A stretch of 64,000 nt of DNA, from contig DAIDKV010000046.1 of NCBI GenBank assembly GCA_027449865.1, positions 1 through 64,000 on the forward strand. Direction: 5' to 3'. The position numbers were made by a program, and so were the translations under genes. Shown one piece after another: positions 1 through 13,339 of this stretch. Positions within the stretch are counted from its first letter, which is position 1. Every line of letters starts with the position of its first letter. Under the pieces are notes generated by a model. The model ran no database searches and was not told where the DNA came from. It saw nothing but the letters and a program-made list of their open reading frames with translations. Source of the DNA: Planctomycetales bacterium. Its GTDB lineage: Bacteria > Planctomycetota > Planctomycetia > Isosphaerales > Isosphaeraceae.

Positions 1-50
1 AGCCCACTAGGACCTGAACCTAGCGCGTCTGCCAATTCCGCCACTTCGGC
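1..50 (-). tRNA. tRNA-Leu (anticodon CAG), 5' part only
   Basis: The reverse strand carries the acceptor 5' strand GCCGAAG, a D-arm of the form GGCGGAATTGGCAGACGCGC and an anticodon stem-loop CTAGG-TTCAGGT-CCTAG. The anticodon is CAG, so it reads CUG leucine codons. The variable arm, T-arm and 3' acceptor lie beyond the left edge of the window. The 5' end was placed at base 50 by comparison with the usual bacterial tRNA-Leu layout. Confidence 0.9.
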
Positions 51-143
51 GTCACACTATTAAAGAGCGAAGAAGGCCCGCCGTCAAGAGCATCGAACAC
101 TTGTGCGATCGGGAGCAGGCCAACTCACTCCCACAACCAGATT

Positions 144-2072
144 CTAGTGCGATAGCTCGAGAAATTCCAGTCGAGTTGGCAACTCGGCCGTGTGATACAC
201 GCGCTGGGTCGCTTTGCGGTAATCGGAGACTTGCGCCCGGTAGATATCCACGAACGTCTGAGGGTTGCGATCGATCAGCGGGAACCAGCTACTCTGAACC
301 TGCACCATCATCCGATGCCCCGCTCGAAACGTGTGCGCCACGTCCTGGAGCCGGAAGTGCACCGACGTCGGCCGGCCCGGGACGAACGGCTCAGGCTTCG
401 TGAGGCTCTCGCGAAACCTCCCGCGGAGGACGTCGCCGCGAACGAGCTGCTGGTATCCGCCCATCTTCGACGAGGCCCCTTCGACATCTGGATAATCGTC
501 CGGATAGACGTCGATCAGCTTCACGATCCAGTCAGAATCCGTCCCGCTCGTCGAGACGAATAGCCGGACCTCGATCGGGCCGACCATGGTTAGATCTTCC
601 GTCAGTCCGTCGGAAAGATACGAGACCACGTCGGGACGTCGCCAGGCGAACCGCTGGTCTCGGACCATGTAATCGTTCGCCATTCCTTCCTCGATCTCGT
701 CCGTGTACTCGACCGGATGCGCCGGGTCGCTCACGTACTCGTCGAACTTCGTCTCCTCGCCTGGTTCGGCCCTCGAGCCGGGCGGCTCGAAGGTCAGTCG
801 GCCGCCGGGAAGGACGTACAGCGAGCGCCGACGAGTCCCGCGGGGCGGCCAGGCATCAAAATTCCGCCAACGGTTCGTGCCCGTCTCGAAGATCCATGCC
901 TCGGTCCTGTCGCGTGGTTTTCCTTCATTCAGATGCTGCTCGAAGAACGGAAATTCGATCTCGTCGCGGAAGAATTCGCTCGTCTTCGTGTGAAACGCAA
1001 TCGGCCCGAGCTTCGAGCCGTCGTCGCGTGCCCAGCCGCCGTGACGCCAGGGACCCATCACCAGCCGATTCTCGATGCCGGGGCTGCTGGCCTCTACTTT
1101 CTTGTACGTCTCCAGGGCTCCGAAAAGGTTCTCGGCGTCGTACCAACCGCCGACTGTGAGTACGGCGGGCTTGATTCCATTGAGATGACGCCGGATGTCG
1201 CGCGTCTGCCAGAATTCGTCGTACGTCCCGTGCCGCATCATCTCATCCCAGAACGCGACCTGCCCCTTGAAGTAGAGCCGATCGACGTTCGACAGCGGGC
1301 CGAGGCCAAGATAAAAAGCATAGCCGTCGGACTTCGTGACGTCGAACCTCGGCGCAGGCTGGTGAGTTGGCTCCGGTCTCGAACGACCGAAAGATCCCAA
1401 AAATCCGAAGGCGTGGGGCAGGAAAAACGCCCCATTGTGGTGCCAATCATCGCCAGCAAACCAATCCGTTACCGGCGCCTGTGGTGAGACGGCCTTCAGC
1501 GCAGGATGGGCATCGATCATCCCGGCCGCGACGTAGAAACCCGGGTAAGAAATCCCCCACATCCCAACTCGTCCGTTGTTCCCGGGAACCTTCTTCACCA
1601 GCCAGTCGATCGTGTCGTAGGTATCTGTACTTTCATCAATGTCCTGCGAACCTCGCTTTTGGTCCAGATGAGGTCGCATATTCTCAAAAACGCCCTCCGA
1701 CATCCAGCGGCCTCGCACATCCTGATAGGCCACGATGTAGCCTTCACGGCCGAACTTTGGCGAGGGACCGATCTCCGATTTGTAAGCTTCCACTCCATAA
1801 GGCTGCACGCCGTAGGGCGTCCGCATCAGCAAAATCGGCGCCTTCCTCTCTGGTACCGCCGGAACCTTGGGCACTTCGCTCCGTCTCTTGGGGATGTAGA
1901 CCGCTGTATAGAGCCGGACCCCATCGCGCATCGGAATCCGGTATTCGTACTTCAAATAATGCTCGCGAAGGAACTCTACCCCCTGCGCCGCGGCTTTTCC
2001 GGGCAATGCAGAGATCAGCGCGAGCATCGCCAGAGGGGCAAGAAAGGATCTGCAATCGCGAAGAGTCATCAT
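144..2072 (-). CDS. Secreted CocE/NonD-family alpha/beta hydrolase (X-Pro dipeptidyl-peptidase S15 type)
   Basis: A 642-residue serine hydrolase. Residues 1-30 form a signal peptide (hydrophobic stretch APLAMLALISALPG, cleavage near KAAAQ), so the enzyme is exported. The early motif EYRIPMRDGVRLYTAVYIP is typical of the S15/CocE family. The nucleophile elbow is GISYPG, with the catalytic Asp likely in VGGWYD and His in GPWRHGGW. The last 200 residues match the PepX_C jelly-roll domain (VEVRLFVSTSGTDSDWIVKLIDVYP type). The family hydrolyses acyl esters or amides; the substrate cannot be read from sequence. It follows the BMC operon on the same strand but is separated from it by a large hairpin, so it is probably regulated apart. 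An ATG-ATG pair opens the gene; AGGAG lies 8 bases upstream. Confidence 0.88.
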   Translation of the reverse strand: MMTLRDCRSFLAPLAMLALISALPGKAAAQGVEFLREHYLKYEYRIPMRDGVRLYTAVYIPKRRSEVPKVPAVPERKAPILLMRTPYGVQPYGVEAYKSEIGPSPKFGREGYIVAYQDVRGRWMSEGVFENMRPHLDQKRGSQDIDESTDTYDTIDWLVKKVPGNNGRVGMWGISYPGFYVAAGMIDAHPALKAVSPQAPVTDWFAGDDWHHNGAFFLPHAFGFLGSFGRSRPEPTHQPAPRFDVTKSDGYAFYLGLGPLSNVDRLYFKGQVAFWDEMMRHGTYDEFWQTRDIRRHLNGIKPAVLTVGGWYDAENLFGALETYKKVEASSPGIENRLVMGPWRHGGWARDDGSKLGPIAFHTKTSEFFRDEIEFPFFEQHLNEGKPRDRTEAWIFETGTNRWRNFDAWPPRGTRRRSLYVLPGGRLTFEPPGSRAEPGEETKFDEYVSDPAHPVEYTDEIEEGMANDYMVRDQRFAWRRPDVVSYLSDGLTEDLTMVGPIEVRLFVSTSGTDSDWIVKLIDVYPDDYPDVEGASSKMGGYQQLVRGDVLRGRFRESLTKPEPFVPGRPTSVHFRLQDVAHTFRAGHRMMVQVQSSWFPLIDRNPQTFVDIYRAQVSDYRKATQRVYHTAELPTRLEFLELSH

Positions 2073-2081
2073 TCGCTGAAC

Positions 2082-2143
2082 TCCTGGAATCGTTCATCGG
2101 ATCGACTCGACGCTAGGAGTCGATCCGATGAACGATTCCAGGA
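2082..2143 (-). promoter_or_regulatory. Perfect 27-bp stem-loop between the BMC operon and the CocE gene
   Basis: Bases 2082-2108 and 2117-2143 are perfect reverse complements (27 bp) around an 8-base loop (GACGCTAG). The stem begins 21 bases after the last BMC gene and its base overlaps the AGGAG ribosome-binding site of the hydrolase gene (2081-2085). There is no T-run after it on the minus strand, so it is not a classical intrinsic terminator. It could protect the 3' end of the BMC mRNA or hide the hydrolase ribosome-binding site in a read-through transcript. Confidence 0.75.
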
Positions 2144-2164
2144 TACCCGACTCGCACAGAGGAA

Positions 2165-3535
2165 TCAGCGCCCGAGACCGAGTCGCTCCCGATGATAGGC
2201 CAGTCGTTCAGAGGCCGACATCCGGGCGAAGTCGGGGCGGCCGTTCGAGGGGAGTTGACCGTTGGCCGATGCGAGCCGATGGCGAGCGACCGAGTACGAT
2301 TCGGTGACGAGCGGCCGTTGGGTCTTTTGCGAGCACTGGCACGAATCCGGCTCGGAATGTGCGTGGGCCTCAGCGCCGTTCTTGCAAGGGCACGAAGTTT
2401 TTGATGATGCCGTCTGGACGACCGGAAGCGCGCCGTCTCCAGGCGCCTTCTTCGAAGGGGGCGACGCGTCACGAATGCCGTCAACTCGGGCGCCGGACGT
2501 CCCGGCATAGCTCATGGACTGTTCGGTAAGCTTCAGGTCATCGTCGAGGTTTCGAGTGGGTTGAGTGCCGAGCCGCTGGAGGACGCCGTGATAGGCCCGG
2601 ACCGCCTCGACTGGCCCCACGTGCCCCTCGACGATCAACCGGAGGAAGTGGACGAACGCGAGCTGGTTCTCGGCATTGTTGATCTTCCGGCCATAGAGCG
2701 CGACCTTCGCGCCGTACTTCCGCGCGTCGTGCAGAAGCTGAAACGCATCGCGAGTCGTACCGGCGGATCCGCCAAGAATGCCGACGATCAGGTGCGGGTC
2801 GAACCGGACCAGCTCTTCCATGGCCTTCGGTCCGTGATAGACAATCTTCAGAAAATCGGGGCGTCCGGTCGGGCCAACTCCTGCCAACATACGTGTGATC
2901 ATATCGTTGAGGAAATGCGGCAGGATCTCAGGCGAGATGGCGTTCGGGACGTTCGGATCGAAGACCTCGAGGAAGTATCGGAATCCCTTGCGCTCGGCCT
3001 CTTCGCGGAACTCGTGGAACCGAACAAGGGTCTCCATGTCGCGTTCGAGGTCGTTGTTGAATGTGACGCTGTAGAGCCCGAGGTTGGCCCCTAGCGATCT
3101 CTCCTCGGGCGAGCAATCGAGGTGGCCGCACTGAGCGTGGTCGATGCTTGCTGTACGGAACGGACGCGCCGCGGACTTCGCGTACGAGGAACCGCGTGCG
3201 AGGTGAATATCGGTCGTATCGTTGGCCCGAATGGCGGGGGTGACGGGCGAGTGGTCGAAAAATCGCTCGTCGAAGGTCAGGGCGTGATTGGAGCTGGCGG
3301 ACATCAGCATGATGTCCACTTGCCCCGATCGGGCGATCAGTCGCATCTGGTCGCGATACTGCTGGAGGGTCTTGAACCGAACCTCGCCGGCGTGCATCTC
3401 GGGCGATTGACCAGGCGCGCCGAGACCAAGCGCCATGTCGGCGTCCTTGGCGTCGGCGAGGATGAACTCTCGGCAGTTGGGGTCGGCGTGGATCGCGGCG
3501 AGTTTGCGGTCGAGCGACTTCTGCATGACGATCAC
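2165..3535 (-). CDS. BMC-associated predicted TIM-barrel (DeoC/DhnA aldolase-like) protein with Cys/His-rich tail
   Basis: Last gene of the BMC operon, 456 residues. It starts with GTG and overlaps the stop of the dehydrogenase gene by 4 bases (GTGA), implying translational coupling; an in-frame ATG three codons later is possible. Residues 1-350 look like a beta/alpha barrel. DFLKIVYHG, IVGILGGSAGTTRDA and VALYGRKINNAENQLAF resemble the end of DeoC/DhnA class I aldolases, with the Lys in FLKIVY a possible Schiff-base residue. The tail carries CPC (382-384), HAH (391-393) and CQC (399-401), then a short basic-amphipathic end (ASERLAYHRERLG). A protein of this type accompanies PV-type BMC loci, but its reaction is not established. 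The aldolase resemblance is my inference. Confidence 0.65.
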   Translation of the reverse strand: MIVMQKSLDRKLAAIHADPNCREFILADAKDADMALGLGAPGQSPEMHAGEVRFKTLQQYRDQMRLIARSGQVDIMLMSASSNHALTFDERFFDHSPVTPAIRANDTTDIHLARGSSYAKSAARPFRTASIDHAQCGHLDCSPEERSLGANLGLYSVTFNNDLERDMETLVRFHEFREEAERKGFRYFLEVFDPNVPNAISPEILPHFLNDMITRMLAGVGPTGRPDFLKIVYHGPKAMEELVRFDPHLIVGILGGSAGTTRDAFQLLHDARKYGAKVALYGRKINNAENQLAFVHFLRLIVEGHVGPVEAVRAYHGVLQRLGTQPTRNLDDDLKLTEQSMSYAGTSGARVDGIRDASPPSKKAPGDGALPVVQTASSKTSCPCKNGAEAHAHSEPDSCQCSQKTQRPLVTESYSVARHRLASANGQLPSNGRPDFARMSASERLAYHRERLGLGR

Positions 3536-4632
3536 CCCTGCCCCGAGATCGTGACCCGAGGCCGGCCGGTCGACCCGTTGCTTCCGCCGCCAGATCCCAT
3601 CGTCACCCGTACCGAGCGGGAACCGCCGCTGGTGGGGGTTGTGGTTGTCGAGGTCCGAGATCCGCCCGAAGCCGAGCCGGCGGCCGTCGCGGCAGCCTTT
3701 GGATTGGCCTTGAGAACGGCGTCGATCGTCTCGCGAAGGACTTGACCCGAGTGCTGCAATGCCGAGACCTCCTTCGGCCAGAGCTCAATCTCGAGCAGGC
3801 TTTCAACGCCCCGGCGGCCGACGACGGTGGGCACCGAGAGACAGACATCCCGGACGCCGTAGGTCCCGTTCACCAGCGACGAGACCGGCAGGATTCGCTT
3901 CTGGTCGAGGGCGATCGAGTGGATCACGTCTCGGATCGAGAGACCGACGGCGAAGCCCGCGCCCCCCTTCAGCTTGATCACCTCGGCGCCGCTGCCTCGA
4001 GTGCGCTTGAGGAGGGCCTCGGCCGTCGACGAATTCCAGCCGGGATAGCGATCCAGGGGCAGGCCAGCGGCCTGCGCCGTTGACCAGACGGGAACCATGC
4101 TGTCGCCGTGCTCGCCCAGAATCAGAGCGGTGACCTGAGTCGGTGGCAGGTTCAATCCCTCGGCGATGAGGCTGCGGAACCGGGCGGTGTCGAGAACGGT
4201 CCCCAGCCCGATGACCTGGCTCGAAGGGAGCCCCAGTTGCCTCGCGGCGAGATAGGTCAGCACATCAACCGGATTGGAAACGACGAGGACGATGGCGTCC
4301 TTCTTCATCCCGGCCGCGGAGACCTGGCCGAGGATGTTGAGAAAGAGCTCGACGTTCCGGTTGATGAGATCGAGCCGGCTTTCGTCGGGCTTCCGGCGGA
4401 GTCCGGCCGTGATCACAATCGCGTCGCTCTCGGGAATCGCCTCGTAGCCGGTCGCCCGGATCCGCTGATCAGCGACCAGCGAGGCGCCGTGAAGCAGGTC
4501 GAGGGCCTGTCCCTTGACCTGGTCGGCATTCAGGTCAATCAGATCAATCTGGCTGACGATTCCGCCGCATTGAAGGGCGAAGCCCGTCGAGGATCCCACC
4601 AGCCCGCCGCCACCAATAATGCTGACTTTCAT
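3532..4632 (-). CDS. Lactate/malate dehydrogenase family enzyme of the PV-type BMC
   Basis: NAD-dependent 2-hydroxyacid dehydrogenase of 366 residues; the fold ends near residue 315. The Rossmann loop is GGGGLVGSS, the catalytic His is in LILGEHGDSMVP and the substrate loop is AGLRRKPDESR. The residue aligned with LDH position 102 is Arg, as in malate dehydrogenases, whereas lactate dehydrogenases have Gln. In PV BMCs this enzyme is thought to recycle NADH made by the aldehyde dehydrogenase; whether it acts on oxaloacetate, pyruvate or lactaldehyde is not decided here. Residues 316-366 are a Gly/Ser/Thr-rich tail ending RPRVTISGQG, unusual for the family, perhaps for shell association. The stop overlaps the next gene by 4 bases. 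Confidence 0.88.
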   Translation of the reverse strand: MKVSIIGGGGLVGSSTGFALQCGGIVSQIDLIDLNADQVKGQALDLLHGASLVADQRIRATGYEAIPESDAIVITAGLRRKPDESRLDLINRNVELFLNILGQVSAAGMKKDAIVLVVSNPVDVLTYLAARQLGLPSSQVIGLGTVLDTARFRSLIAEGLNLPPTQVTALILGEHGDSMVPVWSTAQAAGLPLDRYPGWNSSTAEALLKRTRGSGAEVIKLKGGAGFAVGLSIRDVIHSIALDQKRILPVSSLVNGTYGVRDVCLSVPTVVGRRGVESLLEIELWPKEVSALQHSGQVLRETIDAVLKANPKAAATAAGSASGGSRTSTTTTPTSGGSRSVRVTMGSGGGSNGSTGRPRVTISGQG

Positions 4633-4664
4633 GAGAAAGTGACTCCTCTCTGGTTCGCGGGGGC

Positions 4665-5654
4665 TTAGCGGGCCGACCCGTTCAGGGCCTGCATGACCTG
4701 GTTGGTAATCGCCCGGACGAGCGCCTCGGCGTCCGTACTCGTCTCCGTGGCGTGACCGTTGCTCGACGGGGTGGAAGCCCGGGGCGCTGGAGCCGGAGTA
4801 GAGCCGCCAGATTGGTTCGGGAGCGACGGCCGTGGTGTGAGCAACGCCTCGATCGGCGACGGATGCGGAACGCTCTCGGCGATCTTCGGATGGATGAAGA
4901 CGCGAGGCTCGGGCTGGTTCTCGTGGTAGCCCTCGCGAAACAGGCTGTTGCCGCAGAGGTCGCAGTTCTCCAGCCCGCGCTCAAGGCGGGGATCGGCGAT
5001 CCCCAGGTTCGGCTTCAGCTTGATCAGCTCGGCGGCCTTCGTATCATCGTAGAAATGAACACGACCGAGTTGCTTCACCAGAATTAGAATCCGGCAATAG
5101 GCGTCGATGATCTCGGTCTTGAAGTAGGCGTCTTCGAGATCGCTCCCGTAGGTGAGTGTCCCGTGGTTCGCCAGCAGGATCGTATCGGTATCCTTCACGT
5201 AGGGCAGCACGGTGTTGGCAAACGGCTGACCACCAGGCGTCTCATACGGGGCAATCGCGACCTCGCCGAGGAAGACCTCAAACTCAGGCATGAGGCATTT
5301 CGGCACCGGCTCGCGGGCGATGGCGAAGGCGGTCGCGTGAGGCGGATGACAATGCACAACCGACCGGACATCGGCGCGGGCCTTCATGACCGCGAGGTGC
5401 AGCAGGATCTCGCTCGAACGCTTCCTCTTGCCCGAGACCTGCTTGCCGTCGAGGTCCACGATACACAGGTCATCCGGCTTCATGAAGCCCTTCGAGACTC
5501 GCGTCGGCGTGCAGAGGACGCGGTCCTCACTGAGCCGATAGCTGATGTTGCCGTCGTTCGCCGCCGCGAAGCCCTTGTTGTAGACCCGCCGGCCGATCTC
5601 GCACATCTGCTCGCGGAGCTTCCACTCGTTCATCACCGCGCCGTTGCTGTTCAT
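4665..5654 (-). CDS. Class II aldolase (fuculose/rhamnulose-phosphate aldolase type) with C-terminal encapsulation peptide
   Basis: Residues 1-225 are a class II aldolase/adducin domain: GNISYRL near the N-terminus, the zinc ligands in VVHCHPPHA and ANHGTL, and an acidic MPEFEVFLGEV segment. Known PV-BMC aldolases cleave L-fuculose-1-P and L-rhamnulose-1-P to DHAP plus lactaldehyde. A CDLC pair follows at about residue 236. After a Pro/Ser/Thr-rich linker (about 270-305) the chain ends in the amphipathic helix DAEALVRAITNQVMQALNG, a typical BMC encapsulation peptide. GAGGAA sits a few bases before the chosen ATG; a second in-frame ATG is seven codons on. The aldehyde product would feed the aldehyde dehydrogenase inside the shell. 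Confidence 0.9.
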   Translation of the reverse strand: MNSNGAVMNEWKLREQMCEIGRRVYNKGFAAANDGNISYRLSEDRVLCTPTRVSKGFMKPDDLCIVDLDGKQVSGKRKRSSEILLHLAVMKARADVRSVVHCHPPHATAFAIAREPVPKCLMPEFEVFLGEVAIAPYETPGGQPFANTVLPYVKDTDTILLANHGTLTYGSDLEDAYFKTEIIDAYCRILILVKQLGRVHFYDDTKAAELIKLKPNLGIADPRLERGLENCDLCGNSLFREGYHENQPEPRVFIHPKIAESVPHPSPIEALLTPRPSLPNQSGGSTPAPAPRASTPSSNGHATETSTDAEALVRAITNQVMQALNGSAR

Positions 5655-5699
5655 GAGTTCCTCGCGGGAATCGGGTTGCCGAATTCCGTTTGAATGTGC

Positions 5700-5978
5700 C
5701 TAGATCGAAATCTGATCGAGCAAGCAGGCGCAATAGGCGTCCACCGGAGTCTTGACCTTGCCGAACGGGTTGGCGGCCTCGCGGCCCTCACTGATCCCAA
5801 TCAGGCTGCCCGGCCCAGCGCCCAGATTGTCGAAAACCACAACCTCTTCGCCTCGGGCCGGTGAATCGTCCATGAGGGCGGCCATCGGCATCGGCAACGC
5901 GATCAGGTATCGCCCGCCGCGCAGGCTCGGATGCAGCCTCGACATCGTCACCCGCCCGATCACCTCGCCAATCCTCAT
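5700..5978 (-). CDS. BMC-P (EutN/CcmL family) pentameric shell protein
   Basis: A 92-residue EutN/CcmL protein that forms the pentameric vertices of the compartment. It starts MRIGEVIGRVTMSRLHPSL, has the family block VVVFDNLGAGPGSLIGISEG and ends in VDAYCACLLDQISI, which corresponds to the final beta strand that closes the pentamer. It is one of three BMC-P genes in the operon, a number typical of PV-type loci. It lies 19 bases after the upstream BMC-P stop and 45 bases before the aldolase. Confidence 0.92.
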   Translation of the reverse strand: MRIGEVIGRVTMSRLHPSLRGGRYLIALPMPMAALMDDSPARGEEVVVFDNLGAGPGSLIGISEGREAANPFGKVKTPVDAYCACLLDQISI

Positions 5979-5997
5979 CGACGCCTCCCCCTGCCCT

Positions 5998-6258
5998 TCA
6001 TCCGATCGCGTCCGGAATCCCCATGACGCTCCACCGCCCGGGCGTCTCTCGCCCGATCATTTCCTGGAGAACCCGTCCATCGTTCGTCAGAATGACCAGA
6101 TCGCCTCGCCCCGCACCGAGCCTGTCGAAGGCCAGCACCGGCTCGCCGTCCGGGTTCCCACTCGCCGTCTGGAGCTGGACAATCAGGAGCCTCTCCCCCT
6201 CGAACGTGGGATGCTTCAGCGTCGAGGTCGCCGAGCCGATGACACGCCCAATCTGCAT
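5998..6258 (-). CDS. BMC-P (EutN/CcmL family) pentameric shell protein
   Basis: An 86-residue vertex protein. MQIGRVIGSATSTLKHPTF and LAFDRLGAGRGDLVILTNDG are the family landmarks. It starts 1 base after the stop of the aldehyde dehydrogenase gene, so the two are likely translated together. It ends RWSVMGIPDAIG, lacking the Cys-containing end of the next BMC-P, so the two paralogues are not recent duplicates. The operon's separate vertex proteins could make mixed or alternative vertices; that is inference. Confidence 0.92.
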   Translation of the reverse strand: MQIGRVIGSATSTLKHPTFEGERLLIVQLQTASGNPDGEPVLAFDRLGAGRGDLVILTNDGRVLQEMIGRETPGRWSVMGIPDAIG

Positions 6259-6259
6259 A

Positions 6260-7681
6260 TCAAAGGAACCTCATGCCGCCGACAAGGCTGGTCCGGCGCT
6301 GCCTGGTGAAGGTCAGTGGAGTGGTCACACCCTCGCCGGTTGGTCCCGCGATCGAGAAAGAGAGCGAGCCCACGCCACCCAGTCCGAGACCCGCGACGCA
6401 GGGCCCATTGACCACGAAGATCGTGCAGTCCATCAGCCGCCCCATCTTCGTCATCACCGAGGAGTCGCGCGAGTGCAGGATTGCCGTGTGACCATAACCC
6501 TGCTCGCTCTCCTTCGCCAGTGAGATCGCTCGATCGACGTTCGAGACCCGGACGAACGGGACGAAGGGCATCATCTGCTCGTGCTGGACGAACGGATGCT
6601 CCGCGCCGGTCTCGGCGAATAGGAGTTGCGTTCCCTCGGGAACCCGAACGCCCGCATACCCCGCCAGAACGGACGGATCCTGCCCGACCAGGTCCTTGTT
6701 CACGTGCAAGGCACCATCATTTCCCTTCTGGAAGGCCGCCTGAGTCAGCGCATCCACCTGCCCAGCCGTGAGACGGAACGCGGTCTGCCTCGACATCTCT
6801 TCCATCAAGGTGTCGAAGATCTCGGCAACGGCGAAAACCTGTTTCTCGCCGATGCAGAGCAGGTTGTTGTCGTACGATCCACCCGCGACGATCGATTTTG
6901 CGGCATTCGTGAGACAGGCCGTTGCATCAACGACGACCGGCGGATTCCCCGGCCCCGCCACAATCGCCCGCTTGTTGCTCGCCAGCGCCGCACGAGCGAC
7001 CGCGGGTCCACCTGTCACGACCAGCAACCGAACGCCCCGATGCTTGAACAGATCATTGGCCGATTCGAGTGTCGGCGGGTCGATGATCGTGAGCAGGTTG
7101 TCGAGCCCGATCGCTTCTCGGATGGCCCGGTTGAACCGGCGGACGCCCTCGGCCGCGATCTTCGCGCCCGAGGGATGCGCGTTGAAGACGACCGTGTTGC
7201 CGGAGGCGAGCATGTTGATCGCGTTTCCGGCGAGTGTCGGTAGGCTGTGGGTGACGGGAGTAATCGCGCCAATCACGCCGAACGGAGCGTAATCGGTCAG
7301 GGTCAACCCCTCGTCGCCGGCATCGTTGTCGGTACGGAGATACTCAACCCCAGGCACCCTGGGGATCGCGTTACGAAGCTTCTCGATCTTGTGATCGAGC
7401 CGTCCGATCTTCGTCTCTTCCAGTTCCAGCCGACCCAGTTCGTCGGCCTGCTCAACGCAGATCTCCCGGATGCGATCAATGGCCGCCTTGCGGTCGGAGA
7501 GAGGACGGGATCGGAAAGCCCGGAAGGCTTCGTCGGCCGCGTGGACGGCGTCGTCGGCCGTGGCGAAGACGCCAAGGCTCCCCGACGACCGGACCTTCCC
7601 GTTCCCGGGCGCGGCCCCGTTCCCCATCTGCGAAAGCACCTGCTGAACGACACTGCGAATCAGGTCTTCGGTCATTTGCAT
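6260..7681 (-). CDS. CoA-acylating aldehyde dehydrogenase (PduP/EutE-like) with N-terminal encapsulation peptide
   Basis: Oxidises lactaldehyde (propionaldehyde in PduP) to the acyl-CoA with NAD. The first 20 residues hold an amphipathic helix (TEDLIRSVVQQVLSQMG) and a Gly/Ala/Pro linker, the usual encapsulation signal of signature BMC dehydrogenases. The catalytic domain shows FGVIGAITPVTHSLPT, the nucleotide-binding VVTGGPAVARAAL, and the active-site Cys in YDNNLLCIGEKQV. The length of 473 matches PduP and EutE (about 460-470). It provides the acyl-CoA used by PduL and the NADH recycled by the dehydrogenase at 3532-4632. Confidence 0.93.
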   Translation of the reverse strand: MQMTEDLIRSVVQQVLSQMGNGAAPGNGKVRSSGSLGVFATADDAVHAADEAFRAFRSRPLSDRKAAIDRIREICVEQADELGRLELEETKIGRLDHKIEKLRNAIPRVPGVEYLRTDNDAGDEGLTLTDYAPFGVIGAITPVTHSLPTLAGNAINMLASGNTVVFNAHPSGAKIAAEGVRRFNRAIREAIGLDNLLTIIDPPTLESANDLFKHRGVRLLVVTGGPAVARAALASNKRAIVAGPGNPPVVVDATACLTNAAKSIVAGGSYDNNLLCIGEKQVFAVAEIFDTLMEEMSRQTAFRLTAGQVDALTQAAFQKGNDGALHVNKDLVGQDPSVLAGYAGVRVPEGTQLLFAETGAEHPFVQHEQMMPFVPFVRVSNVDRAISLAKESEQGYGHTAILHSRDSSVMTKMGRLMDCTIFVVNGPCVAGLGLGGVGSLSFSIAGPTGEGVTTPLTFTRQRRTSLVGGMRFL

Positions 7682-7752
7682 GGCGGATACCGTGGCTATG
7701 GGGAGGGTCGGTCGGATGCCTCGTGATGCCGACGTTAGGTTCCAGGTCTGAA

Positions 7753-8073
7753 TCAGGCGGTGGCTTCGCGGTTCGAGAAAATGACCCGTCCACCGATATC
7801 CACGGTGTCCACCAGGCCAATTACGACCGCGTCGATCGGAAGCTTCTCAGTCTCGGGTGTCAGCCGGGCACTCGATCCCTGGCAGATCAAGACCATCTCA
7901 CCAACCCCGGCTCCCAGGGTATCGACCACGACGAAGGTCCGCCCGGTGGAGACAAGCCGGTTCCGCTCCTTCTCGTCGACCCGATAAGGCTCGACCGTCA
8001 GAAGCTTGTGTCCCGTCATTGAGGCGACTTTCTGAGTCGCCACCACGCTCCCGGTCACCCTCGCGAGAAACAT
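7753..8073 (-). CDS. BMC-P (EutN/CcmL family) pentameric shell protein
   Basis: The shell protein begins at the ATG encoding MFLARVTGSVVATQKVASM and is 106 residues long. The longer open frame upstream encodes low-complexity sequence with no shell-protein similarity and includes a dispersed repeat, so I set the start at 8073. Landmarks are TFVVVDTLGAGVGEMVLICQ and the C-terminal strand IDAVVIGLVDTVDIGG. The conserved ending suggests it is the canonical EutN/CcmL-like paralogue of the three. It sits between ackA and the aldehyde dehydrogenase. Confidence 0.9.
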   Translation of the reverse strand: MFLARVTGSVVATQKVASMTGHKLLTVEPYRVDEKERNRLVSTGRTFVVVDTLGAGVGEMVLICQGSSARLTPETEKLPIDAVVIGLVDTVDIGGRVIFSNREATA

Positions 8074-8110
8074 CGGGTTGAACGCCTCGAAAGCCTGGGG
8101 GATGCGAACG

Positions 8111-8174
8111 AACCACGGAGACACCAAAAATGGATGGCTTTTCCCAATCTCTGTGTCGCCGTGACTTTGTGGTT
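8111..8174 (-). repeat. Dispersed CCACGGAGACAC-type inverted repeat
   Basis: The arms AACCACGGAGACACC (8111-8125) and GTGTCGCCGTGACTTTGTGGTT (8153-8174) are imperfect inverted copies. This is the widely dispersed 'accacggagacacggag' repeat type seen in many environmental bacterial genomes. It fills the gap between ackA and the BMC-P gene and touches the ackA stop codon. It may form an mRNA hairpin that separates the two halves of the operon. Confidence 0.55.
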
Positions 8175-9370
8175 TATTGATCTTTGCCCTGAAGAATATC
8201 CCGGGACTGCCGGGCGACGACGATCTCTTCGTTCGTCGGAACGGTCCAGACCTCGATCCGGGAACCGGGGGTCGAGACCTTTCGCTCGACTGGACCCGAC
8301 TCGTTAGCCGAAGGGTCAAGCTCGATCCCGAACCAGCCGAGGTCGCGGCAAACACCCGACCGGATTCTCGATGAGTTCTCGCCGATCCCGCCGGTGAACA
8401 CGATGGCGTCGGCCCCGCCCAGTTCCACGAGAAAGGCACCCAGGTAATGACGGATCGCCCCGACGAACTGGTCCATCGCCAGTTGAGCCCGAGCGTCGCC
8501 AGCCGATGCGGCGGATTCGATGTCGCGCAGGTCTCGCGCCCCGCAAAGCCCCTCCAGTCCCGACTGATTGGCGAGGATGTTCAGGATCTCTTCAAGACTC
8601 TTGCCCGTCTCGCGGAGCAGGACCGGCAGAGCGAAGACGTCGAAGTCGCCGACGCGATTATTATGCGGGAGGCCGGTCTGCGGGCTCATTCCCAGGCTAC
8701 ACGCCTGCGACTCACCATTCCGGATCGCGCAGAGGGAAGAGCTACCGCCGAGGTGACAGGAGATCAACTTGATCCCAGACCGTCCCATCAACTCCGGCAT
8801 TCTCCACGAGATATAACGATGACTCGCCCCGTGGAAACCCCAGCGACGCACCCCGAGTTCGGTCGCCCAGGCATCGGGGATCGCGTACCTCTGATTGGCC
8901 TCGGGTATCGTCCGGTGGAAACCGGTCTCGAAGGCCGCGACCAGCGGCAAATTGGGGAATCGCTCACGCAGCATCCGCATCGCGCGGGTGTACGGCGGAT
9001 TGTGCGCTGGGGCCACGTCCGCGAAGGCCTCCATCGCCGCCAACACCGACTCGTCGACCACGTGAACCCCGGTCAGGTTCCGCGCGTGGACCGCCTTGAA
9101 CCCGATCGCCGAGACCTCCGACGGATCGGCCAGAACGCCGATCTCCGAATCCGCGAGCGAGTCGAGACAAAGCCGAACCGCCTCGCCGTGATCGGCGATC
9201 GGCCCGACCTGCTCACGCTCGCCCCGGGGCGACTTCACGACCGACTTCGCGTTCGGCGAGCCGATTCGTTCAATCGCCCCCCGCGCCATCACGGGCTCGG
9301 CCGGGTCTGACAGATCAAATAGTCGATACTTGAAGCTGGTGCTTCCGAGGTTGGCGACGAGGATCTTCAC
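8174..9370 (-). CDS. ackA: Acetate/propionate kinase family (lactyl-phosphate to lactate plus ATP)
   Basis: A 398-residue ASKHA-fold kinase. The phosphate-binding start is ILVANLGSTSFKYRLFDL. Family blocks include ETGFHRTIP, RWGFHGASHRYI (catalytic His and Arg region), CHLGGSSSLCAIRNG and IVFTGGIGENSSRIR. It is slightly divergent from housekeeping AckA: the usual LGNGxS is LGGSSS and the usual EGLMMGTRSGD region reads TGLPHNNRVGD. In this operon it would harvest ATP from the acyl-phosphate made by PduL. It starts 3 bases after the stop of the BMC-H gene. No encapsulation helix is obvious, so it may act outside or at the shell. Confidence 0.92.
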   Translation of the reverse strand: MKILVANLGSTSFKYRLFDLSDPAEPVMARGAIERIGSPNAKSVVKSPRGEREQVGPIADHGEAVRLCLDSLADSEIGVLADPSEVSAIGFKAVHARNLTGVHVVDESVLAAMEAFADVAPAHNPPYTRAMRMLRERFPNLPLVAAFETGFHRTIPEANQRYAIPDAWATELGVRRWGFHGASHRYISWRMPELMGRSGIKLISCHLGGSSSLCAIRNGESQACSLGMSPQTGLPHNNRVGDFDVFALPVLLRETGKSLEEILNILANQSGLEGLCGARDLRDIESAASAGDARAQLAMDQFVGAIRHYLGAFLVELGGADAIVFTGGIGENSSRIRSGVCRDLGWFGIELDPSANESGPVERKVSTPGSRIEVWTVPTNEEIVVARQSRDILQGKDQ

Positions 9371-9373
9371 GGC

Positions 9374-9655
9374 TCACTGGCCTCCCACGAAGGCCCGGAC
9401 GATCGCCGAGTCGGGGCGAGGGATTACATGGGCGGCTCGAAGCTCGCCAACCCGCCCCGCCGCCTCGGCCCCCGCCTCGACAGCGGCACGAACACTACTG
9501 ACATCACCACGGATCATCACACTTACCACGCCGCCGTCGAGCTTCAGAACTGAGCCCGCCAGCTCCACGCTGGCCGCCTTGAGCATCGCGTCGGTCGCAT
9601 GGATCAGCGCCACCAGGCCGAACGTCTCGATCAGCCCCAGGGCGTTTCCGTTCAT
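9374..9655 (-). CDS. BMC-H hexameric shell protein
   Basis: A 93-residue Pfam-BMC protein. ALGLIETFGLVALIHATDAM is the opening strand and helix and LRAAHVIPRPDSAIVRAF the closing part. The helix VRAAVEAGAEAAGRVGEL is nearly identical to that of the next paralogue. Hexamers of this type tile the shell facets, with a small central pore for metabolite passage. It has the shortest N-terminus of the three BMC-H proteins. Confidence 0.94.
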   Translation of the reverse strand: MNGNALGLIETFGLVALIHATDAMLKAASVELAGSVLKLDGGVVSVMIRGDVSSVRAAVEAGAEAAGRVGELRAAHVIPRPDSAIVRAFVGGQ

Positions 9656-9737
9656 GGTTCCCTCGCTCCCCTCTCAATGTTGGTGTCCGGTCGGCCCGGT
9701 CGTCGGCCTCTCGCAACGCCGTCGGCCGGGGGATCTC

Positions 9738-9819
9738 AGATCCCGGATTCTGGAGTCCAAACCGCTTCAGGAAACAGGTTCCAGATATCTGGAACCTGGA
9801 GTCTGCGATCCTGGGATCG
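9738..9819 (-). repeat. Long imperfect inverted repeat with a 24-base perfect palindrome at its centre
   Basis: The 181-base gap between two BMC-H genes holds a self-complementary region. The centre at 9775-9798 is a perfect 24-base palindrome (half-site CAGGTTCCAGAT). The flanks GATCCCGGATTCTGGAGTCC and GGAGTCTGCGATCCTGGGATC extend it as an imperfect hairpin to about 82 bases. No T-run follows. It may be a small mobile palindromic element or an mRNA-processing hairpin that sets shell-protein ratios. Confidence 0.7.
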
Positions 9820-9836
9820 ATCCCCTGACGACCGGA

Positions 9837-10163
9837 TCAGCCGAGGAACGTCCGGATGATCGCCTCGTCCGGCCTGGGGATTACGTGGGCGCTCACCAGT
9901 TCGCCGACGCGACTGGCCGCCTCCGCGCCCGCCTCGACGGCCGCCCGGACGCTCCCCACATCGCCCCGCACAACCGTGGTGACAAACGCTCCGCCGACCT
10001 GAACCCGACCGGCCAACATCACGTTGGCCGCCTTGAGCATCGCGTCGGTTCCCTCGATCATCCCGACCAGACCCTTGGTCTCGATCAGGCCGAGAGCGTC
10101 ACCATTGAAACCGTTGCCGTTAACGCCGATTCGGCCGCCGGCCGCTCGCTGCACTGTCGCCAT
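9837..10163 (-). CDS. BMC-H hexameric shell protein
   Basis: A 108-residue BMC-domain protein with a short Gly/Asn-rich N-terminal extension (about 20 residues) ahead of ALGLIETKGLVGMIEGTDAM. The usual core GAFVTTVVRGDVGSVRAAVE and end SAHVIPRPDEAIIRTFLG are intact. It starts 4 bases after the stop of the previous BMC-H gene. In-frame alternative starts within the extension are possible, so the N-terminus is the least sure part. Confidence 0.92.
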   Translation of the reverse strand: MATVQRAAGGRIGVNGNGFNGDALGLIETKGLVGMIEGTDAMLKAANVMLAGRVQVGGAFVTTVVRGDVGSVRAAVEAGAEAASRVGELVSAHVIPRPDEAIIRTFLG

Positions 10164-10167
10164 GGTC

Positions 10168-10500
10168 TCAGGCTCCGTCGCTCTTGGTGGCCTTGGTTGG
10201 GGTCGCAGACGCCGCCTTGGTGAAGCTCAGAACGCCGCCGAGATCCTCGTGCGGGCGAGGGATCACCTGCACGCTCACCACCTCGCCAATTCGGCTCGCC
10301 GCCGCGGCGCCGGCGTCGACCGCCGCCTTCACCGCCGCCACGTCGCCCGCGACGAAGGCCGTCACCAGCCCGCTGCCGATCTTCTCCCAGCCGACAAGAT
10401 CGACGTTCGCCGCCTTGACCATCGCGTCGCTGGCTTCCACCAGCGCCACAAACCCCTTCGTCTCAATCATGCCGAGCGCTTCGAGCGATGCCGAGGCCAT
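10168..10500 (-). CDS. BMC-H hexameric shell protein with C-terminal extension
   Basis: A 110-residue BMC-domain protein: [20 protein letters not shown], then [20 protein letters not shown] and [15 protein letters not shown]. It differs from its two neighbours by a C-terminal tail of about 20 residues rich in Ala, Thr and Lys, which in related shell proteins lies on one face of the hexamer. It is the first shell gene of the operon, 71 bases after pduL. Confidence 0.93.
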
Positions 10501-10571
10501 GGAAGGCCCTCCCTAGGTCCAGTTACCGAAACGTTCCGCCCAGTCCCATCCATCCCCTTCGCCCAGAATCC

Positions 10572-11273
10572 TCACGCCTTGACGAGCGTGACCTTGCTGG
10601 CGTGGGGCAAGTCGCAGCAATTCGCCTCATCTGTGTCGATGTGAACTTCCAGCTTCCAGTCGGGATGCGTCCGCACCAGGAGCCCTTCGAGCGTCGAGGG
10701 ACACGTGCTCTCCACCCGCATGTTCATCCGATCGAGGTGCTTCACGCCGTAATACTCGGCGTCCTTCGGCCCCATGTGCACGTGCCGCTCGGCCCGGATC
10801 ACTCCCATTTTGAGTTCGAGCGTTCCCTTGGGTCCGACCAGCAAGCAACCCGGCGTCCCTTCAATATCACCCGAAAGCCGAACGGGGAGATCGATCCCCA
10901 GGCTGATCGCGTCGGTGAACGAAAGCTCCACCTGGCTGAACTTCCGGCAGGGCCCAAGAATCCGAACCCCCGGTATCATGCGCTGCCTCGGCCCAACCAC
11001 CGCCACGGTCTCGTTCGAGGCGAAGTCGGTCGCCTGGTACAGCCGTTTCATTTCCGTAAGCTGATACCCACGACCAAAGAGGACATCCACATCCTCCTGA
11101 GTGAGATGGCAATGACGCGCCGAAATATTCACAACCACATTCGGCCGGTATTCCTGGCTCATCGGGGCGTGCCCGTTCGCCGGAGCCCCTTGCCCCATCT
11201 GCTGCCGGAGGATCGCACGCACCAGGCCCTCGACCTGCTCGCGCGTCGGTGATGCCGCCGTCAGGATGCTCAT
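10572..11273 (-). CDS. pduL: PduL-type phosphotransacylase with N-terminal encapsulation peptide
   Basis: Converts acyl-CoA and phosphate to acyl-phosphate, freeing CoA inside the compartment. The 233-residue protein has an N-terminal amphipathic helix ([18 protein letters not shown]) and linker, then the PduL fold. Zinc ligands are visible in [14 protein letters not shown] and [13 protein letters not shown]. The CoA-binding barrel pieces [18 protein letters not shown] and ADE-type ends are as expected for the family. The start ATG overlaps the deoR stop (ATGA), so it is coupled to the regulator gene. Confidence 0.93.
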
Positions 11274-12118
11274 ACTGCGCTCCCTGGACCGTCATTCCCA
11301 CTCGAAGCGCCCTCGGCCCGGATCGCCGTGGACGCTGTCCCGTTGTTCCGACTCGATTCCACCGATGCGACGTGAACAGTCAGCCCCGCCGCCTCCAGCA
11401 TCGCCCGATGCTCCTCGGCCACGTCCGAGTCGATCACGATCGAGCCGACCTCATCGAGCCCGCAGAGCCTCGCCAGTGCCAGCCGGCCGAACTTGGTATG
11501 GTCGGCCACGATCATCACGTCCTGGCCGCAAGCCATCATCTGCCGCTCGGTCTCGACCAGCAGCAGATTGGAGTTATAGATCCCGTGCGGCATGATTCCA
11601 CCGGCGCCGAGGATGGCCGTCCGAACCCGGATCGACTTCATCATCTCGATCGCCTGAGACCCAAGCGCCACTCCCGTCCTCGGGTAGACATATCCGCCGA
11701 TGAGGATCAAATCCGTCTGCTGACTGCTCGCGAGCAACTGTGCGATCGGAAGGCTGTTCGTCACCACCTGCAGCCGGCGCCCGACCAGAGCCCTCGCGAC
11801 CTCAAGCGTCGTGGTTCCACCGTCGAGCAAAACGGTATCCCCATCTTCGAGAAGTCCGGCGGCCGTCTGTCCGATCGCTCGCTTCTCCGCGGCTGAGGTC
11901 CCGGTCCGCTCCTCAAAGGCCGGCATCGACCGGACCTCGCCCGCGTACACCGCCCCGCCGTGCGTCCGCTTGATCATCCCGGTGAGATCGAGCGCCTCAA
12001 GATCGCGCCGGATCGTACTCTCCGAGACCCCGAGTTCCCGAACCAGCTCGTCCAGGGTCGCGTAACCCTGCCGGCTGATCAGCTCGATCAGTCGTCGCCG
12101 TCGCGGTTCTGGCAGCAT
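11270..12118 (-). CDS. DeoR-family transcriptional regulator of the BMC operon
   Basis: First gene of the BMC operon. From the ATG at 12118 it encodes 282 residues starting [19 protein letters not shown], the typical beginning of the DeoR winged-helix domain ([18 protein letters not shown] is the recognition region). The C-terminal DeoRC sensor follows, with [18 protein letters not shown] as the sugar-phosphate-binding signature. The frame stays open to 12196, but that part would run across a palindrome upstream and lacks HTH similarity. DeoR proteins usually repress sugar catabolic operons and release DNA on binding a sugar phosphate, here plausibly a fucose or rhamnose pathway intermediate. 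Confidence 0.9.
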
Positions 12119-12189
12119 TCCGACCCTTGATTGAGATCTTGACCACGACCCGTCAACATTCTCCGCCACGCCGCAGTATCTGTCAAGAA

Positions 12190-12208
12190 CCTTCATTCAA
12201 CATGAAGG
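12190..12208. promoter_or_regulatory. Palindrome in the deoR-mutM intergenic region, candidate DeoR operator
   Basis: CCTTCAT-TCAAC-ATGAAGG is a 7-bp inverted repeat with a 5-base spacer. It lies 72 bases upstream of the deoR start in the only sizeable gap before the BMC operon, which is where an autoregulatory DeoR site would be expected. Binding is not demonstrated. Confidence 0.45.
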
Positions 12209-13158: not shown

Positions 13159-13339
13159 GTTTTCTTCCTCAAAATCAGGATTAATTTGCATTTTGCGGAT
13201 TTGGATTCACAATGGGTCTTGGTGGATCAGGCCCGACATCGCTCTTTGGCAATCCGGCGGACCATTCAGTGTTTTCGGCGCCGAACTTCGGCGCCGAAAG
13301 CGCCGACGAACGTCGCGGATTTCGGCGCCCTCGGGTTCT

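Follow-up and report, generated by a model that had tools for sequence, protein, structure and literature searches.

Genes behind strong bacterial operons are exposed to read-through, and the locus described here raises the question of how one such gene might be kept from being translated together with the operon in front of it. The window, meaning the whole stretch of DNA that was analysed, is 64,000 nucleotides long (positions 1 to 64,000 of contig DAIDKV010000046.1, assembly GCA_027449865.1, from a Planctomycetales bacterium of the Isosphaeraceae). Along its minus strand, the last gene of a PVM-type microcompartment operon is followed by a long hairpin and then by the gene for a CocE/NonD family hydrolase. 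An earlier note on this DNA had seen in that gap a perfect 27-bp stem covering a ribosome-binding site, and had suggested that it could block translation of read-through RNA while leaving RNA from a nearby promoter free.

The reading favoured here, with a probability of roughly 0.6, is that the junction may act as a translational insulator, in which read-through RNA would be blocked and escape would be through a promoter inside the hairpin. CocE's own promoter would be squeezed into the stretch from the operon's last stop codon to the hairpin. RNA reading through from the operon would have both arms and would fold into the hairpin, hiding the Shine-Dalgarno sequence and leaving CocE untranslated. 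Local RNA would begin inside the left arm (at about 2133), without TCCTGGAATC, the pairing partner of the Shine-Dalgarno end, and would be left with the inner hairpin only and an ordinary ribosome site. If the hairpin blocks read-through and local RNA escapes in this way, CocE output would follow its own promoter rather than induction of the operon. The same letters would then serve as promoter and as translation lock, and the origin of an mRNA would decide whether it is translated, so that transcript abundance would be misleading for such genes. The junction is small enough for direct testing or for use as an insulator part.

The hairpin and its flanking genes

The two arms are complementary at all 27 positions (100%) around an 8-nt loop (Table 1), so the perfect stem of the earlier note stands. 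Folded as RNA, the plus-strand letters give a z of -8.78 and the transcribed minus strand one of -8.15, in both cases equalled by 0 of 200 shuffles. The same note had placed the whole AGGAG of the CocE gene in the base of the stem; this is right for four of the five bases (AGGA, 2085-2082), and the last G lies just outside. Its remark that such stems are rare also holds up. A scan for hairpins with loops of 2-16 and a score of at least 13 was run over 1,441,470 bases, window included, out of a genome of 8.48 Mb. Of its 24 hits, 2 are fully masked contigs and 22 are real hairpins. With a score of 27 the window hairpin ranks second among the 22, and the top one (29) is a member of a palindromic repeat family that accounts for 5 of them, which makes the window hairpin the longest non-repeat one in the scanned 1.44 Mb. 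The same scan on 339,855 mononucleotide-shuffled bases gave no matches, and an Rfam 15 search of positions 1-12000 of the window gave none above the gathering score.

Table 1. Positions of the features of the junction (window coordinates) and, in the last row, of a further locus from this genome
Feature	Position	Strand	Basis or remark
CocE/NonD family hydrolase	144..2072	-	TIGR00976 E 3.7e-83; PF02129 and PF08530
Shine-Dalgarno AGGAG of CocE gene, 8 nt before ATG	2081..2085	-	sequence
Hairpin 3' arm in minus-strand RNA	2082..2108	-	arm pairing
Hairpin loop, 8 nt	2109..2116	-	arm pairing
Hairpin 5' arm in minus-strand RNA	2117..2143	-	arm pairing
Predicted transcription start (+1)	2133	-	from usual -10 spacing; starts up to 4 nt to either side tried
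-10-like TATCCT, whose TCCT (2143-2140) pairs with Shine-Dalgarno AGGA	2140..2145	-	TAnnCT position in 15/15
-35-like CTGATT, includes upstream TGA stop, 17 nt before -10	2163..2168	-	CTGA in 15/15
Aldolase-like protein, 456 aa, last gene of PVM-type microcompartment operon	2165..3535	-	open frame
Flavin-reductase-like gene	L176, ATG at 5955 (G000:C9:45955)	-	perfect 10-bp GAAA-capped hairpin over Shine-Dalgarno

The flanking genes are co-directional, as the earlier note had it, and the hairpin does follow the end of a microcompartment operon, which is of the PVM type (fucose/rhamnose). Genes further up the operon match class II aldolase, lactate/malate dehydrogenase, aldehyde dehydrogenase and acetate kinase, and the microcompartment shell proteins were identified by eye. 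The PVM microcompartment is described as serving fucose and rhamnose degradation, and the same four enzymes belong to the PVM-type locus (PMC4207490). The hairpin junction is no part of the locus type as presented in that paper, and the words CocE and esterase are absent from its main text. The aldolase-like protein at the operon end matches no Pfam family, and its NCBIfam matches, of aldolase type, are weak and below the cut-off. The N terminus of the CocE protein resembles a signal peptide (by eye). At the contig end, positions 1-55 of the window look by eye like a cut tRNA gene, and ARAGORN reports none there.

A promoter-like element and the predicted occlusion of the ribosome site

The junction was compared across 15 loci in four genera, taken from the CocE loci, from a search with the operon's last gene in 45 genomes of the family, and from one extra stretch. 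CocE matches at E 1e-20 or better occur in 43 of the 59 genomes searched (own included), and the operon's last gene lies directly upstream in 9 of the 30 CocE loci taken. The last-gene search gave 42 places, of which 30 were taken as loci and 2 more added; nine of the other 10 have CocE elsewhere or not at all, judging by search coordinates, and one (G065) lies outside the CocE search. Among the best 80 loci of a genome-contig scan, 7 have CocE, apparently as repeats of loci already in the set (some stretches are identical). One assembly, G003, gives two different operon-CocE junctions (on C205 and C2), and since its contamination is put at 6%, one of the two may be from another organism and the genome possibly mixed.

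All 15 Isosphaeraceae loci have the same gene order, and in every one a TAnnCT motif starts 22-23 nt past the first base of the stop that ends the upstream gene, whereas none of 82 distinct stretches in which the same upstream gene has no CocE behind it has TAnnCT at that place. Restricting these controls to alignments that reach residue 448 leaves 0 of 65 (17 of the 82 end early). The background rate of TAnnCT is 0.00056 per position, from three sampled genome stretches. A CTGA precedes the motif in each of the 15, with a spacer of 17 in 11 loci and of 18 in 4, and the bases in between are variable. The stop codon within this CTGA is TGA at every junction locus, compared with 33 of the 82 controls; the C, in the CTG part, is also under coding constraint because it belongs to the last codon of the upstream protein. 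A simple promoter scan did not list the -10-like element at 2140-2145. From the fixed position of the two motifs, we infer that they form a promoter belonging to CocE.

The -10-like TCCT consists of the very bases that pair with the Shine-Dalgarno sequence, and these therefore lie upstream of any start that this -10 could give. Opening the window's ribosome site is computed to cost 21.5-23.5 kcal/mol in RNAs whose 5' end is at the -10 or further upstream, and 7.9-9.5 kcal/mol in those that start within 4 nt of 2133. When the segment from the stop codon to +1 is shuffled, 0 of 200 shuffles reach the window's cost. RNA starting at the predicted +1 retains the inner 17 bp of the stem, and its Shine-Dalgarno sequence is mostly paired, weakly, with downstream sequence (unpaired 0.08-0.25 at +1). 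Read-through from the operon is presumed here, and its RNA, folded in this way, would be expected to go untranslated.

Across the junction set, read-through RNA is costlier to open than local RNA in 12 of 15 loci, including 5 of 5 in the window's genus; in the computed folds of G010, G018 and G031 it is no more closed. With other flank lengths the exceptions are again three of 15, namely G010, G018 and G063. When the stretch from stop codon to +1 is shuffled, the native sequence of 12 of 15 loci is costlier to open than the mean of its shuffles (in two by 0.1 only), 7 loci rank in the top 5%, and G010, G018 and G063 lie below the mean.

Another comparison sets the 15 operon-adjacent CocE genes against 19 of 21 other CocE loci in the same 165-nt frame, with the starts of the non-adjacent genes picked by script. 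Two loci were left out, L027 (cut by a contig end, the rest of the gene being probably in L056) and L036 (start too near a contig end). The mean opening cost is 15.0 for the adjacent genes vs 8.0 for the others (Mann-Whitney p 8.5e-6), and z against shuffled own upstream DNA is above zero in 13 of 15 vs 4 of 19 (p 6.8e-5), where both p values overstate independence because the 15 loci are related and come from four genera. After correction for composition, z is 6.1 in the window, 2.5 to 3.2 in G027, G032 and the second locus of G003, and a moderate 1.2 to 2.0 in G001, G003 and G036; it is only 0.1-0.7 in G004 and only 0.13-0.67 in five of the six Paludisphaera-type loci, and G010 and G031 have values below zero. 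Occlusion thus appears to go with operon adjacency among CocE orthologues, and after composition correction it is strong in the window's genus and in three further loci and weak in most Paludisphaera-type loci. Taken with the fixed motif and the anti-Shine-Dalgarno bases inside it, this gives computational support to the logic of the earlier note, within the limits that three of 15 loci are not more closed and that the long stem is found in three species.

These three are the window's species and two sister species with the stem in the same place; among the 15 junction loci they alone reach a simple stem score of at least 17, and the loci grouped as g7 and g14 are at shuffle level. The stem is perfect only in the window's species. 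The sister species form 25 and 24 of the 27 pairs, of which 3 and 2 are G-U on the transcribed strand; two stem positions are changed on both sides, and one C-A cell in G003 would pair on the opposite strand. Among the three, conservation across the gap is highest in the inner stem. The six Paludisphaera-type loci share an invariant GCGATT, a short way ahead of the -10, that can form a helix with A(A/G)TCGC immediately in front of the ATG. This helix is part of the best fold in 5 of the 6 (G061 is without it) and scarcely varies; 7 of 35 pairs of the inner hairpin are doubly changed, and the covariation term of the consensus is unfavourable (+0.76). Whole-gap folds are clearly better than shuffles in G018 (z -2.1), G060 (z -2.6) and G032 (z -7.6), the only ones of the Paludisphaera type, and no better in G004, G061, G063 and G031 (z -0.3 to +0.8). 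The best folds of g7 loci pair CTCCG with CGGAG (G010) or CGGGC with GCCCG (G027 and G036). In both the Paludisphaera-type and the g7 loci the strand that occludes the ribosome site is found ahead of the predicted start, with bases that differ from those of the window. The computed fold of the single g14 locus has no occlusion.

Other explanations of the stem

The main rival is that the stem is a hairpin of the operon end, which would terminate the microcompartment operon or stabilise its 3' end and would lie near CocE by chance. This is a good deal less probable than the insulator. In its favour, 5 of the 62 control loci that have this operon-end gene but no CocE (L111, L119, L123, L108 and L058) carry a hairpin scoring at least 20 soon after the gene's stop. 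Like an intrinsic terminator, the window's stem is a stable hairpin between transcription units, but no T run follows it (the tail is GUUCAGCGA, with 2 T in 9) and the Shine-Dalgarno region comes next; a terminator scan did not list it either. An intrinsic terminator as the sole role is rejected for this lack of a U tract. An operon-end role is also hard to square with a long stem in only three sister species of the 15 loci, and a pure operon-end device would leave the fixed promoter-like element and the Shine-Dalgarno pairing unexplained. An operon-end role and a read-through block could coexist. The five control hairpins, which are from other Planctomycetes, have 1-3 T in the next 9 nt and perhaps represent a U-tract-less type of terminator or 3' end.

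A second alternative takes the hairpin as a 5' leader that stabilises locally started CocE mRNA, with the occlusion incidental. The inner 17 bp are indeed within the predicted local transcript, and their conservation in the three sister species would suit such a role. It is nevertheless an unlikely account, as it gives no reason for the pairing of the ribosome site with bases ahead of +1, and in several loci the hairpins that follow +1 are all short.

Less likely again is a palindromic operator acting at the DNA level, with a repressor, for instance the DeoR-type regulator of the operon, bound over the -10. The stem does sit over the promoter-like element, and a DeoR-like reading frame (by eye) is present at 11270-12196. 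The idea is disfavoured by the absence of a second copy at the operon start or elsewhere in the assembly and by arm sequences that differ among genera; a further point against it, resting on few cells, is that the sister species have G-U pairs on the transcribed strand. In the whole assembly the hairpin is single copy, and no other match to the 64-nt stretch exceeds 21 nt; the four short matches inspected all lie within open frames of 313-864 codons. Identical copies had been named in the earlier note as the sign of a mobile palindromic element without a role here. Such a functionless REP/MITE-like element is rejected because the hairpin is single copy, and it or a template-switch product is the least probable of all, given that the stem keeps its place in two sister species and is unlike the genome's palindromic repeat family, even though that family exists and a template switch could give a stem that is perfect only in the window's species.

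The palindromic repeat family of this genome has the core CCCTCGCTGGCGCGTCGGG, with sites at L163:6299-6370, L183:17-84, L232:14368-14431, L221:2311-2362 and L217:236-285. Within the window, positions 13266-13329 contain overlapping inverted repeats rich in GGCGCC.

Known parallels and a second locus

The translational insulator proposed for the CocE junction would be of a kind already known, since the lysozyme gene (gene e) of phage T4 works in this way. According to the account in PMC3014915, long early transcripts of gene e fold over the ribosome site, with a 100-fold reduction for the folded form, and late promoters just upstream give a well-translated RNA from which the 5' strand is missing. 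The same source describes long transcripts of soc, 49 and I-TevI that likewise hide the Shine-Dalgarno sequence and/or the start codon. The window resembles gene e in having a long-transcript helix that pairs with the Shine-Dalgarno sequence, as seen in the computed fold and opening cost. A promoter in or beside the 5' strand would be a second resemblance if the promoter-like element, at its fixed place in all 15 loci, is active. The differences are that T4 has phage late promoters, phage timing and measured effects, whereas here a chromosomal hydrolase gene lies behind a microcompartment operon, with a sigma-70-like element and computed effects only. In the transposons IS10 and IS200, RNA from external promoters is thought to fold and so to hide the ribosome site of the transposase; those are multi-copy transposon ends, unlike the single-copy host locus here. 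A paper on IS200 mRNA structure is among the titles cited in PMC8450116. Judged by titles and the beginnings of abstracts, with most subscription papers outside the coverage, the literature gave no recognisable case in which a -10 serves as lock at a metabolic junction of a chromosome, and no planctomycete transcription-start map is among the literature matches listed. For a bacterial gene of the ordinary sort, such a switch would be unusual.

A genome-wide scan for similar switches covered 1015 gene starts with a Shine-Dalgarno sequence in a 1.44 Mb sample, at a helix score of at least 6. TAnnnT over the anti-Shine-Dalgarno strand was found in 15 cases, against 4 to 57 for six decoy motifs, and no genome-wide enrichment is claimed because TAnnnT is no commoner than the decoys. 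Both genome scans omitted the CocE start itself, probably through the gene filter, which means that both miss cases.

One further gene in the same genome has a comparable arrangement. It encodes a 201-aa flavin-reductase-like protein (named by eye), and its TATAAT runs into AATCCCTCCG-GAAA-CGGAGGGATT over the ribosome site GGAGGG. The gene is present in 15 of the 45 genomes searched; the hairpin is found in three of these, which are three species of the window's genus (L235-L237), and is absent, by eye and by fold, from the other twelve. With CocE, where the sequences change from genus to genus, this gives two possible cases of a more general and still tentative idea, that promoter elements doubling as anti-Shine-Dalgarno strands insulate genes behind co-directional units in some Isosphaeraceae. 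If this were true, translation in such cases would be limited to RNA started on the spot. For the flavin-reductase-like gene, the computed cost of opening the ribosome site is 20.5 kcal/mol, and it drops to 7.0 kcal/mol in RNA beginning at the predicted +1.
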